This document shows, one piece after another, positions 1,844 through 6,055 of a stretch of 64,000 nucleotides of DNA. Position numbers and translations under genes: made by a program. The notes under the pieces are model-generated. The model saw only the letters and a list, made by a program, of their open reading frames with translations, was not told the DNA's origin and searched no databases. Numbering within the stretch: position 1 is the stretch's first letter; each line of letters opens with the position of its first letter. Origin of the DNA: Pseudovibrio ascidiaceicola (GTDB taxonomy: Bacteria; Pseudomonadota; Alphaproteobacteria; Rhizobiales; Stappiaceae); the NCBI RefSeq assembly GCF_900114245.1, contig NZ_FOSK01000003.1, positions 186,001 to 250,000 on the forward strand, given 5' to 3'.

Positions 1844-2806
1844 ATGACTGTTAAGCACACCAAACTCCTGATCGTAGGCTCCGGCCCTGCTGGCTACACC
1901 GCCGCAATCTACGGCGCGCGCGCCATGCTGGAACCGCTTCTGGTCACAGGTGTGCAGACTGGCGGTCAGCTGACCATCACCACCGACGTTGAAAACTACC
2001 CAGGCTTTGCAGATCCAATTCAGGGTCCATGGCTCGTGGAAGAAATGCGCAAGCAAGCCGAAAACGTCGGTACCAAGATTGATTACGACACCATCTTGGA
2101 AGCTGACCTCTCCAAGCGCCCGTTTGAGCTGAAAGGCGACAGCGGTACCCTCTACACCGCAGACGCGCTCGTCATCGCAACCGGTGCACAGGCAAAATGG
2201 CTCGGCCTGCCTTCTGAGGAAAAGTATCAGGCTGGCGGCGTGTCCGCATGTGCAACCTGTGATGGCTTCTTCTACCGTGGCAAGGAAGTTGTTGTGGTTG
2301 GTGGCGGCAACACCGCTGTTGAAGAAGCACTCTACCTCGCAAACCTTGCAGATAAAGTTACGCTGGTTCACCGCCGTGATGCCCTGCGTTCTGAAAAAAT
2401 CCTTCAGGAACGTCTCTTCAAAAACGAGAAGATCAACGTGGTCTGGGACAGTGAAGTGGATGAAATCCTCGGCACCGAAAACCCAGCTGTTGTGACTGGC
2501 ATCCGCCTGAAGAACCGTAAGACCGGCGAAACCTCAGAAATGTCCACACACGGCGTATTCATCGCCATCGGACACGCTCCAGCGGTTGACCTTGTCAAAG
2601 ATCAGGTAAAGATGAAGGAATCCGGTTACATTTGGACTGAAGCTGATTCAACTCAGACATCCATTCCGGGTGTGTACGCAGCAGGCGACGTGACTGATGA
2701 GCAGTACCGTCAGGCTGTGACCGCTGCAGGAATGGGCTGCATGGCTGCACTGGAAGCAGAACGCTACCTGGCAGCTCTGGAATCTGAAACCGAAGCAGCA
2801 GAATAA
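1844..2806 (+). CDS. trxB: Thioredoxin-disulfide reductase
   Basis: 320 residues, full length. It uses NADPH and FAD to reduce oxidised thioredoxin in the cytoplasm. The FAD-binding GSGPAGY is at residues 12-18, the redox-active CATC at 136-139, the NADPH-binding GGGNTA shortly after (near 153), and the second FAD motif (AAGDVTD) near 277. A Shine-Dalgarno-like GAGGAA precedes the ATG. lsrB follows after 28 bases on the same strand, the trxB-lsrB order known from rhizobia, so the two are probably cotranscribed. That would tie thiol redox supply to a redox-responsive regulator. Confidence 0.98.
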   Translation: MTVKHTKLLIVGSGPAGYTAAIYGARAMLEPLLVTGVQTGGQLTITTDVENYPGFADPIQGPWLVEEMRKQAENVGTKIDYDTILEADLSKRPFELKGDSGTLYTADALVIATGAQAKWLGLPSEEKYQAGGVSACATCDGFFYRGKEVVVVGGGNTAVEEALYLANLADKVTLVHRRDALRSEKILQERLFKNEKINVVWDSEVDEILGTENPAVVTGIRLKNRKTGETSEMSTHGVFIAIGHAPAVDLVKDQVKMKESGYIWTEADSTQTSIPGVYAAGDVTDEQYRQAVTAAGMGCMAALEAERYLAALESETEAAE

Positions 2807-2834: not shown

Positions 2835-3746
2835 ATGCCAGGCCGTTCTTTGGATTGGGACAAGCTGCGAATTTTCCATGCAGCAGCACAGGCAGGAAGC
2901 TTTACCCACGCAGGCGAAGCTCTCAACATGAGCCAGTCGGCTGTCAGCCGTCAGGTCAGTGCACTTGAGGCAGAGCTTGGTGTCCCCCTCTTCCACCGTC
3001 ATGCGCGTGGACTGATTCCAACTGAACAAGGCGAGCTTCTTTACAGAACCGCCCGCGAAGTTCTGCTGAAACTGGAAACCGTTCAGTCCCGCCTGACAGA
3101 CACCAAGGAAAAGCCAAGCGGTACGCTCCGCGTCACCACCACAGTGGGCCTCGGCTCCACTTGGCTCACCGCCCGTGTCAACGAGTTCGTGGATCTTTAC
3201 CCGGACATGCGTTTGGAGCTCATCTGTATGGATGACGAGCTGGATCTGGGCATGCGCGAGGCAGATGTCGCCATCCGTCTGCGCCAGCCAACACAGCCAG
3301 ATCTCATTCAACGCAAGCTCTTTACAGTGCACTTCCACGTTTATGCCTCACCAACTTACATTGAGCGCTTTGGCAGCCCGAGCACCATTGATGATCTGGA
3401 CCATCACCGTCTGATCACCATCGGTGACAACATGGCCTCCTACCTGCGCGCGATGAACTGGCTTGCAACTGCCGGATTGCCAAACGGCGAGCGCCGCGAT
3501 GTTTCCCTGCGCGTGAACAACCTGTCTGGCATCAAGAAAGCCGTACAGACCGGCGTCGGCATCGCCATCCTGCCGGATTACATGGTTGAACCCGGTGCAG
3601 GCATCAAACGCGTTATGTCCGTCACACAGGAAGAGCTGCCAAGCTTTGATACCTACTTCGTGTATCCATCCGAGTTGAAAAACACCGCTCGTGTCACCGC
3701 ATTCAGAGACTTCCTCGTCTCCTATGCAGAACGCTGGACACACTAA
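2835..3746 (+). CDS. lsrB: LysR-type regulator LsrB/VtlR
   Basis: 303 residues from ATG 2835, preceded by a G-rich ribosome site (GGGGGGAAAG). An in-frame TTG at 2820 is less likely. The N-terminal LysR helix-turn-helix (about residues 6-65, with the AALNMSQSAVSRQVSALE-type recognition helix) precedes a substrate-binding-like effector domain. A cysteine near residue 131 lies in the effector domain; S. meliloti LsrB uses cysteines for redox sensing. Assignment as LsrB (S. meliloti) or VtlR (Brucella, Agrobacterium) rests on position directly after trxB and on the AbcR-like sRNA 300 bases downstream, the known target of this regulator. A terminator follows at 3852. Confidence 0.9.
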   Translation: MPGRSLDWDKLRIFHAAAQAGSFTHAGEALNMSQSAVSRQVSALEAELGVPLFHRHARGLIPTEQGELLYRTAREVLLKLETVQSRLTDTKEKPSGTLRVTTTVGLGSTWLTARVNEFVDLYPDMRLELICMDDELDLGMREADVAIRLRQPTQPDLIQRKLFTVHFHVYASPTYIERFGSPSTIDDLDHHRLITIGDNMASYLRAMNWLATAGLPNGERRDVSLRVNNLSGIKKAVQTGVGIAILPDYMVEPGAGIKRVMSVTQEELPSFDTYFVYPSELKNTARVTAFRDFLVSYAERWTH

Positions 3747-3851
3747 GCCTGCACTCCGGAAAAGACCTGATTTGGCTTGGTTAGCCTGCTCAGGAGTTTC
3801 AACCTTAAGTTTTGCACTGCAAAATAAAAAATATCCCGGATCGCTTATGAA

Positions 3852-3881
3852 GCCTCTCAGACCGCCTGAGAGGCCTTTTTT
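3852..3881 (+). terminator. Terminator of trxB-lsrB
   Basis: A perfect 9-bp stem (GCCTCTCAG / CTGAGAGGC) with a 5-base loop is followed by CTTTTTT, about 105 bases after the lsrB stop. It separates the trxB-lsrB transcript from the sRNA gene downstream. Confidence 0.88.
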
Positions 3882-3984
3882 ACGCCCTTCCATCCCGAAA
3901 TGACAATATCTTACGCAGAGTTAGCTATCTGATAGTTGTCAGATTCTGCAATGAAGTTCCGACCCCTTTGAGCTCCCCTGAAAA

Positions 3985-4001
3985 TGCATAGCTGCAATGC
4001 A
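3985..4001. promoter_or_regulatory. Candidate LsrB binding site upstream of the sRNA
   Basis: The inverted repeat TGCAT-N7-ATGCA is centred about 20 bases before the -35 box of the sRNA promoter, near -58 relative to the predicted start. LysR activators usually bind dyads at about -65. The sequence shows the dyad; LsrB binding is inferred from the known LsrB/VtlR control of abcR genes. Confidence 0.45.
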
Positions 4002-4012
4002 AAAATTAAGGA

Positions 4013-4042
4013 TTGCTGTTTCGGCGCTGCACTGCATATATA
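4013..4042 (+). promoter_or_regulatory. Sigma-70-type promoter of the AbcR-like sRNA
   Basis: TTGCTG (4013-4018) and TATATA (4037-4042) are spaced by 18 bases. Transcription would start near 4049-4051, exactly where the first stem of the RNA begins. Confidence 0.6.
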
Positions 4043-4050
4043 CACCTGCT

Positions 4051-4190
4051 GTTGATCAGTTGTTGTCACACCTCTCCTCCCAGTGACATCAACATCCGAT
4101 CAACTGTTCCCCTCTGGAAGGTGATTGCACCCATTAGGTGCTTTATCATTCATCACTTCGAAACCGGACCGCATGGTCCGGTTTTTTTTT
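4051..4190 (+). ncRNA. abcR: AbcR-type (alpha-r15) trans-acting small RNA
   Basis: About 140 nt. The 5' outer stem GTTGATC (4051-4057) pairs with GATCAAC (4098-4104). Inside it TGTCAC (4064-4069) pairs with GTGACA (4083-4088), closing a 13-base loop ACCTCTCCTCCCA that is a strong anti-Shine-Dalgarno sequence. A second unpaired C/U-rich patch (TTCCCCTCTGG) follows, then a hairpin region at 4120-4158 and a terminator with a 9-bp stem and nine T. AbcR RNAs of rhizobia and Brucella have this arrangement, lie beside lsrB, and with Hfq repress ABC-transporter mRNAs by blocking their ribosome sites. Recognition is from structure and position, not from a covariance search. Confidence 0.82.
4162..4190 (+). 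terminator. Intrinsic terminator of the AbcR-like sRNA
   Basis: AACCGGACC (4162-4170) and GGTCCGGTT (4175-4183) form a perfect stem over a GCAT loop, running into an uninterrupted T-tract to 4190. A long T-tract like this is typical of Hfq-bound sRNAs. Confidence 0.92.
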
Positions 4191-4686
4191 GCCAAATGCT
4201 CGCAAATGCCGAAGATGACCAAGGGTCTCCCTAAGCCTTTTAGCTAGCAAACTTCCTGCAATACCCTGCAGCATACAAAGGCGGATGTTCATCAGACGCG
4301 TTAAAGAGCTGTTTTGGAAGATCTTTTGCAAAGTGATAGCAGCAGCCAGCAAGTGCAGTTGAACTGCGTAAAATCGCACTGCTTAAAAACAGACCTAGGG
4401 TCGCTTACTTCTTAGGCACACTAAAAAATCAACTATCCCAGATGCACGCAGAGACATGCGGATTCATCAGGCTATTGCGCAGCACCACCCCGGGAAAACC
4501 CATCAGATTCAAGGTATTCCCAACTCACATAAACTAGTAGTTTCTGCAACTACCACTCAAATTAACTATATTTTTCCTAGGTAAATCTTCAAACAGTGAA
4601 ATTTTACCACCCTTAATAAGCGAAATTACAAATCAGCTTGCATCCTTTACTTATCGAATCATACCTATTGGCAAATATCCGAGGTA
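4191..4686. other. Intergenic stretch, nothing recognised
   Basis: About 500 bases of A/T-rich sequence without a convincing open frame, second AbcR copy or repeat. Near the right end TTGCAT and ATACCT, 17 bases apart at about 4638-4665, could form a promoter for the small frame that follows. Confidence 0.4.
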
Positions 4687-5080: not shown

Positions 5081-6055
5081 TTATCGATAGAGGTTCTGTC
5101 CTTCCAGATCCTTATAAAGGTGCGCTACCTGCTCCGCATAGCCATTGTAAAGCTGTGTTGGCACACGCTCATCCGAACCCAGCAAACGCTCAGAAGCCTG
5201 CGACCAGCGTGCATGCGGCACTTCTGGATTCACATTGGCCCAAAAACCGTATTCGCTTGGGCCAATCTTCTCCCAGAAGCTCACCGGACGCTGATCAGTA
5301 AAGGTGATCTTCACAATGGATTTGATGGACTTGAAGCCGTACTTCCATGGCATCACCAAACGGATCGGTGCACCATACTGCTTCAGCAACGGCTTGCCAT
5401 AGATGCCTGTTGCAACAAATGCCAGATCGTTCATGGCCTCATCCATAGTCACGCCTTCAACGTATGGCCACGGATACCAGAACTGACGCTGACCACTGGC
5501 CACGTCGGAATCTTCAAAGGTCTCAAAGCGGATGTACTTGGCACCGTTCTGCGGGCCAGCATACTTCACCAGCTCGGATAGCGGGAAACCAGTCCACGGC
5601 ACAGCCATAGCCCACGCTTCAACACAGCGGTGACGGTAAAGACGCTCCTGCAAAGGCATCTTGCGCACCAGATCATCAAAATCGATGGTCTGCGGGTTAT
5701 CAACCATGCCATCAATGGTGATGGCCCATGGACGGATCTTCAACGCCTGAGCAGCCCCGGAAATGCGCTTATGCGAACCAAACTCGTAGAAGTTATTGTA
5801 AACGGATGTCACACTCTCAGGCGTAATTGCGCGTTTAAGAGTGAAATCAGCATTCCGCTTGGCTGGATAGAGATCAAGTGTTGGATCCTTACCATCCTGG
5901 GCAAACACATTGCTCACCAAGCCGGTTCCACCAGCAGCCAGACCAAGGCCAACAGCGCCCAAACCCTTCATAAACCTGCGCCGGTTGAAGAACACATCTT
6001 CAGGTGTCGCTTCTCTTTCCGGAATAATCCATTCAGGCCTATGAATAATGTTCAT
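5081..6055 (-). CDS. msrP: Protein-methionine-sulfoxide reductase catalytic subunit MsrP
   Basis: 324 residues. A periplasmic molybdoenzyme (formerly YedY) of the sulfite oxidase fold that repairs oxidised methionines in envelope proteins. A twin-arginine signal is visible at residues 24-40 (RRRFMKGLG then an alanine/glycine-rich core), as expected for export of a folded Mo-cofactor protein. Cys144 in YRHRCVEAWAM is the molybdenum ligand. GGAG lies 8 bases before the ATG. The haem membrane partner MsrQ, usually the next gene, is absent on both sides, so electrons must come from a product encoded elsewhere. MoaD and MoaE for its cofactor are at 44.4-45.2 kb. Confidence 0.97.
   Translation of the reverse strand: MNIIHRPEWIIPEREATPEDVFFNRRRFMKGLGAVGLGLAAGGTGLVSNVFAQDGKDPTLDLYPAKRNADFTLKRAITPESVTSVYNNFYEFGSHKRISGAAQALKIRPWAITIDGMVDNPQTIDFDDLVRKMPLQERLYRHRCVEAWAMAVPWTGFPLSELVKYAGPQNGAKYIRFETFEDSDVASGQRQFWYPWPYVEGVTMDEAMNDLAFVATGIYGKPLLKQYGAPIRLVMPWKYGFKSIKSIVKITFTDQRPVSFWEKIGPSEYGFWANVNPEVPHARWSQASERLLGSDERVPTQLYNGYAEQVAHLYKDLEGQNLYR

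Follow-up and report, generated by a model that had tools for sequence, protein, structure and literature searches.

Gene organization of the locus

The window analysed here is a stretch of 64,000 nucleotides from Pseudovibrio ascidiaceicola, and the genome searches covered the corresponding assembly (5.85 Mb, 45 contigs). The region at 3985-4190 lies between a gene for the LysR-type regulator LsrB/VtlR and msrP (Table 1). Upstream of lsrB is its conserved 5' neighbour trxB, and a terminator-like hairpin separates lsrB from the small RNA (sRNA) unit that follows. The start of lsrB is taken as the ATG; a TTG at 2820 is also possible. Position beside trxB-lsrB is the location of AbcR genes.

The encoded LsrB is 98% identical to that of the uncultured Pseudovibrio isolate X9, 97% to that of P. 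axinellae and 82% to that of P. stylochi, and shares 58-64% identity with records named as Rhizobium, Brucella and Phyllobacterium. Against NCBIfam, no equivalog scored above cut-off. That the sRNA neighbours an lsrB ortholog, as the initial annotation proposed, is borne out by homology and by synteny: when 30 loci were retrieved for the strongest matches across the order, 27 had lsrB at most 1.5 kb from the RNA.

Table 1. Features of the lsrB-msrP region and of other anti-Shine-Dalgarno (aSD) RNA loci in the genome
Feature	Position	Strand	Evidence
trxB, thioredoxin reductase	1844..2806	+	TIGR01292, 409 bits, above cut-off
lsrB/vtlR ortholog, LysR-type regulator	2835..3746	+	identity to named records
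Terminator-like hairpin 3' of lsrB	3852..3874	+	pattern scan
Candidate LsrB/VtlR box GCAT-N3-TG-N3-T	3986..3998	+	exact published pattern; inside dyad TGCAT-N7-ATGCA (3985-4001)
Putative -10 element CATATA/TATATA	4035..4042	+	conservation among relatives; no -35 consensus
AbcR-type sRNA (predicted)	4048..4190	+	R1 135.6 bits (window itself among the source sequences of the model); ar15 31.6 bits; fold z -5.7
Stem-loop 1	4051..4104	+	fold and covariation; aSD1 CUCCUCCC at 4074-4081
aSD2 UUCCCCUC	4107..4114	+	identical to aSD2 of S. meliloti AbcR1/2 (PMC8844928, available excerpts)
Stem-loop 2 (GAUU...AUC, inner GCACC/GGUGC)	4123..4147	+	predicted fold
Rho-independent terminator and U-tract	4160..4190	+	fold, pattern scan, covariation
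msrP	5081..6055	-	
L002, four aSD (CCUCCC) hairpins	1401-1900, G000:C23	-	sub-threshold ar14, 49.8 bits
L003, two-hairpin aSD RNA	1351-1700, G000:C32	-	ar14, 43 bits
L004, array with five CCTCCC motifs	1321-1640, G000:C27	+	sub-threshold ar14, 37 bits

Predicted structure of the RNA

An RNA of about 140 nt had been proposed here, with nested stems closing a 13-base aSD loop, a further C/U patch and a strong T-tract terminator, and each of these elements was recovered. The predicted length is ~143 nt, counted from a predicted start near 4048. Folded alone, positions 4048-4189 reach -50.6 kcal/mol (z -5.7), and none of 200 shuffled sequences folded as well. The predicted 13-nt loop of the 5' hairpin (4070-4082) contains CTCCTCCC, the aSD1 motif. 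In the linker after stem-loop 1 stands aSD2, mostly unpaired in the predicted fold; among the folds listed, the minimum-energy structure of some relatives places a mini-hairpin of four pairs over it. A second stem-loop follows, and then the terminator, whose stem (4160-4185) runs into the T-tract. In a close Pseudovibrio relative (L037, 3711-3852), the flank of aSD2 reads TTCCCCAATTGA in place of TTCCCCTCTGGA.

Covariation was assessed on 25 pairs in 22 distinct family sequences. In this alignment 96.4% of cells are paired, against only 18-41% when partners are slid by one to three columns. Twelve pairs have changed on both sides (shuffled mean 8.6; one of 500 shuffles as high), and double-change cells number 64, compared with 19.8 in shuffles (none of 500 as high) and 0-10 in the slid controls. 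Further pair types, at 20 versus 24.2 in shuffles, go in the opposite direction to the other measures. In the predicted model stem-loop 2 is the helix of least certainty, with 90.9% of cells paired in its outer pairs and the fourth pair unpaired in seven of the 22 relatives.

Assignment to the AbcR family

AbcR RNAs are best studied in Rhizobiaceae and Brucellaceae. A search with the Rfam alpha-r15 model had been suggested as a check on this identity; it returned a full-length match, but one below threshold and with ar14 scoring alike. At curated thresholds Rfam has no match in the window: ar15 (RF02345) gives 31.6 bits where at least 40 are required for gathering (full model, E 8.8e-5), and ar14 (RF02344) gives 33.4 bits against a gathering threshold of 58.8 (full model). 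As the two scores are nearly equal, Rfam alone does not decide the identity. The ar15 model itself is sound, since it finds three loci of a relative (G059) at 112-127 bits, and the ar15 search as run on the P. ascidiaceicola genome had matches in 0 of 14 control genomes. At a loose threshold ar14 matches 9 of the 14, so that weak ar14 matches mean little. The low ar15 score may arise because the sequence of stem-loop 2 is unlike the UGGAGGU...ACCUUC hairpin of rhizobial relatives. Two further families, RF02278 (E 0.14) and RF02837 (E 0.17), gave weak matches that were put down to chance likeness of terminator and C/U sequence.

The identity is instead settled by anatomy: both aSD motifs are letter-identical to aSD1 and aSD2 of S. 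meliloti AbcR1/2, whereas NfeR1 carries three identical aSD motifs (available excerpts of PMC8844928). Homology, covariation, synteny and conserved box spacing likewise support the AbcR-type identity given in the initial annotation. The RNA is best described as an AbcR-type ortholog lying below Rfam's calling threshold, and the interpretation in the initial annotation is mostly right. A search of the open-access literature found no report of AbcR in Pseudovibrio, though an earlier one may exist, and the main text of PMC3927594 does not mention Pseudovibrio, Stappia or Labrenzia.

Promoter and candidate LsrB box

The LsrB/VtlR box is quoted as GCAT-N3-TG-N3-T in PMC8844928 and PMC7486931 (available excerpts). 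The candidate box in the window lies 49 nt before the -10 element and would occupy -62 to -50 if transcription starts at 4048; in S. meliloti PabcR1 the box is placed at -61 to -49 (PMC8844928, available excerpts). The surrounding dyad had been singled out as a LysR-type site. It is the sole match in the 64 kb but is weak by itself, with a mean of 0.19 matches expected by chance and at least one in 16 of 100 shuffles; what gives it weight is that it is conserved and stands at a fixed distance. The symmetric dyad is one local version of a box that is asymmetric and maintained throughout the order.

The spacing evidence comes from 92 distinct promoter regions, which are related rather than independent and range from Pseudovibrio to Rhizobium and Brucella. 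A strict box occurs in 54 and a relaxed box in 79; three of the 79 have no -10 by the pattern used, and in the other 76 the distance from box to -10 is 49 nt in 69, 48 in two, 50 in four and 71 in one. This conserved spacing supports a LysR-type box. Of 13 promoters without a relaxed box, nine belong to second copies of tandem pairs, as is to be expected because AbcR2 is published as LsrB-independent (PMC8844928, available excerpts). Within the genus group, the abcR promoter pattern was seen by eye in 16 of 16 genomes and the RNA itself in 15 (G011 and G013 included); the remaining genome, G009, is represented by a promoter row only, identical in sequence to that of L037, where the RNA is present.

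The box sequence alone is common, with 113 matches in the genome against 17 for the reversed pattern, and was rejected as a means of finding the regulon. Combined with CCTCCC, it matches in 61 of 61 family genomes; many of the listed matches look like coding sequence, and only recurring promoters were used.

A promoter with its start at the first stem had also been annotated. The -10 element stands by conservation, but no -35 element is recognizable, a sigma-70 scan returned no promoters in 3740-4400, and the start is a predicted one. The lack of a sigma-70 promoter and of a -35 element fits an activator-dependent promoter.

LsrB and the redox cysteines

In A. tumefaciens LsrB, C144 and C273 are shared with the S. 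meliloti and B. abortus proteins, and C273 is needed against peroxide (PMC11975290, available excerpts). The Pseudovibrio protein has valine at both columns (residues 145 and 276), the positions having been transferred through an alignment with rhizobial LsrB sequences other than that of A. tumefaciens. The 80 named LsrB proteins divide into 37 with both cysteines, 11 with the second only, two with the first only and 30 with neither. An abcR gene lies downstream in 21 of the 30 named loci lacking both, which indicates that the linkage is independent of the cysteine pair. Because the pair is missing, the redox control of rhizobial LsrB cannot be assumed here, and we infer that Pseudovibrio LsrB answers to some other signal.

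Copy number and distribution

Searches with the R1 family covariance model and with ar15 found one AbcR copy in the genome. A second one was sought and none was found; the other ar14 matches are aSD hairpin RNAs or doubtful. The annotated "only one copy" thus holds for AbcR, but other aSD RNA loci exist. In the order sample, 76 of 199 genomes have an R1 match at E <=0.01, with one copy in 68 and more than one in eight, counts made with strict filters and a single-family model that can be expected to miss some rhizobial copies.

Among the best 80 of a longer list of named lsrB loci, an abcR-like RNA lies downstream on the same strand in 65, of which 52 were recognized by motif and 13 more by R1; two other R1 matches, one at a distance of 1.7 kb (L101) and one on the opposite strand (L076), do not enter this count. 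Tandem pairs were detected by motif in 17 of these 80 loci. Fourteen of the 17 carry names that we take to be Rhizobiaceae; the others are two unassigned MAG or isolate names and one Chelatococcus. The Chelatococcus pair (L071, 3536-3916) is possibly a separate duplication outside rhizobia. With 68 of 76 genomes single and 17 of 80 loci in tandem, a lone abcR is the rule in the sampled order and the tandem arrangement the exception. The initial annotation, right about the identity of the RNA and its partner, was less so in treating one copy as an oddity. In Rhizobiaceae and Brucellaceae, members of ar15 are said always to be multi-copy (PMC3712013, available excerpts).

One locus titled Bacillus subtilis (L087) encodes an LsrB 61% identical to that of the window and has an R1 match of 37 bits; it is probably mislabelled or contaminated.

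Other aSD RNAs in the genome

Three further aSD RNA loci were found (Table 1), along with two doubtful ar14 matches (L006, L007). L002 has GCATATCGGACATGC, one mismatch from the strict box, 49 nt before TATAAA, and the same spacing occurs in all four fetched genus copies (L141, L150-L152). L004 has an exact LsrB-type box, GCATAAGTGTCATGC, and the one -10-like match reported for it, AATAAT, follows at 42 nt, which makes it a weaker fit than L002. By eye, L002-type promoters occur in 13 and L004-type promoters in nine of 16 genus genomes. A common LsrB set of AbcR, L002 and L004 is a prediction. L003 has no clear LsrB box; a match to a solute-binding-protein domain (L192) is found ~0.8 kb away from it.

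L002 and L004 resemble the multi-hairpin aSD RNAs SmelA075/SmelA099, a known kind of RNA; section 2.7 of PMC3927594 places these together with RS0680a of R. sphaeroides. The term "cuckoo RNA" was seen in reference lists only.

Candidate targets

The genome encodes Hfq (112.5 bits), and transport mRNAs make up most of the targets known for AbcR (PMC8844928, available excerpts). Loop-pairing energy is better for the leaders of 38 solute-binding-protein genes than for 123 other ORFs, which may include non-genes (p 0.0008; none of 60 shuffled loops equal), but this advantage is gone once the 16S anti-SD energy is subtracted (p 0.26 for the same 38 and 123).

The motif AGGGGA, complement of UCCCCU in aSD2, occurs at 7 of 38 solute-binding-protein starts in the P. 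ascidiaceicola genome against 2 of 123 controls, a comparison for which the motif was chosen post hoc. With the motif fixed, two other genera gave 8 of 45 against 1 of 81 (p 0.001), or 7 of 43 against 1 of 57 under a first-ATG rule. In these genera GAGG is enriched at least as clearly (21/45 vs 14/81, p 0.0005), and GGAGG is enriched as well (10/45 vs 5/81). Among SD-bearing genes AGGGGA is found in 7 of 33 against 2 of 71 in the P. ascidiaceicola genome, in 8 of 40 against 1 of 37 in the other genera (p 0.02) and in 15 of 73 against 3 of 108 when pooled, the last being partly post hoc. One of the three AGGGGA control genes has a leader identical to that of a solute-binding-protein gene of the set (L201). 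Rows were dropped for 2 of 40 loci in the P. ascidiaceicola genome and for 3 of 48 loci elsewhere, a number that rises to 5 of 48 when the first ATG is taken as the start, and 3 of 33 PF00496 matches had no fetched locus. A PF13458 gene at L189 has the leader AGGGGAAC, the full 8-base partner of GUUCCCCU. Taken together, transporter control by the window RNA is a fair prediction, and no more than that.

Alternative explanations

The near-equal Rfam scores, with ar14 slightly ahead in bits, could be read to mean that the RNA is of NfeR1 type (ar14), an LsrB-activated aSD RNA of another family; in S. meliloti LsrB does activate NfeR1, through a similar box (PMC10746234, available excerpts). We reject this identity on motifs and synteny, and consider it very improbable: the RNA has one CUCCUCCC rather than three and the AbcR-specific UUCCCCUC besides, its box distance suits AbcR1 and not NfeR1 (-72 to -60), it adjoins lsrB as AbcR does, and L002, L003 and L004 are stronger ar14 candidates in the same genome. 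It is somewhat less far-fetched, though still unlikely, that an AbcR-type RNA here escapes LsrB, with a promoter that is constitutive or answers to a different regulator, and with a box that is a relic or serves another LysR protein. The missing redox cysteines and the frequency of the box sequence in the genome would suit such a promoter, but the box and its 49-nt spacing are kept over the order and in the genus, the linkage to lsrB is kept, and the absent -35 fits an activator.

The target side leaves a little more room for doubt. The RNA might have its main targets among other mRNAs, or serve as a decoy for SD sequences in general, with transporter repression a minor effect, since pairing energy is no better than SD strength predicts and the aSD motifs are able to pair with many ribosome sites. 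The enrichment of AGGGGA nevertheless persists among SD-bearing genes, partly post hoc as the pooled figure is, and the targets known for AbcR are chiefly transport mRNAs; we regard a minor role in transport as improbable.

Interpretation and comparison with known systems

The favoured reading, to which we assign a probability of about 0.85, is that the RNA is the sole AbcR-type trans-acting sRNA of this Pseudovibrio genome, transcribed from its own LsrB-dependent promoter and repressing transporter mRNAs. Bound at the box, about 50-62 nt before the sRNA start, LsrB would bring RNA polymerase to a promoter whose -10 is good and whose -35 is poor. Through aSD1 of the 5' loop and aSD2 of the linker the RNA, presumably together with Hfq, would then base-pair with transporter mRNAs, chiefly the ones for solute-binding proteins, at their ribosome-binding sites and so block translation. 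Transcription, LsrB activation, Hfq binding and repression are all expected by analogy with the rhizobial homologs.

A broader and more tentative idea, which we hold to be possible but not probable, is that one LsrB without the cysteine pair drives three aSD RNAs, the adjacent AbcR and two distant arrays, from promoters that share one design, the sRNA role being older and steadier and oxidation sensing a later addition in rhizobia and Brucella. Redox sensing and sRNA activation, which tend to be discussed as one, are set apart by the missing cysteines. A host with one abcR beside its presumed activator would permit a clean single-deletion test, and the family alignment could extend the Rfam model, which misses such orthologs.

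Among the closest known systems are those of AbcR1 in S. meliloti and A. tumefaciens (alpha-r15, RF02345), which share with the window RNA both aSD motifs, the order of the stem-loops, the lsrB/vtlR neighbour, an LsrB box near -60 and the terminator. Compared with AbcR1, the window RNA is single-copy, falls under the Rfam cut-off, has a stem-loop 2 of other sequence and is longer (~143 nt versus 121 nt), and its LsrB is without the pair of redox cysteines. S. meliloti NfeR1 (alpha-r14, RF02344) is alike in its aSD loop, LsrB-type box and sub-threshold score, but differs in its three identical aSD motifs and a box farther upstream, and the available part of its published description contains no UUCCCCUC motif. 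The SmelA075/SmelA099 RNAs have similar CCUCCC-type loops; they are arrays of like hairpins, whereas the window RNA is not an array.
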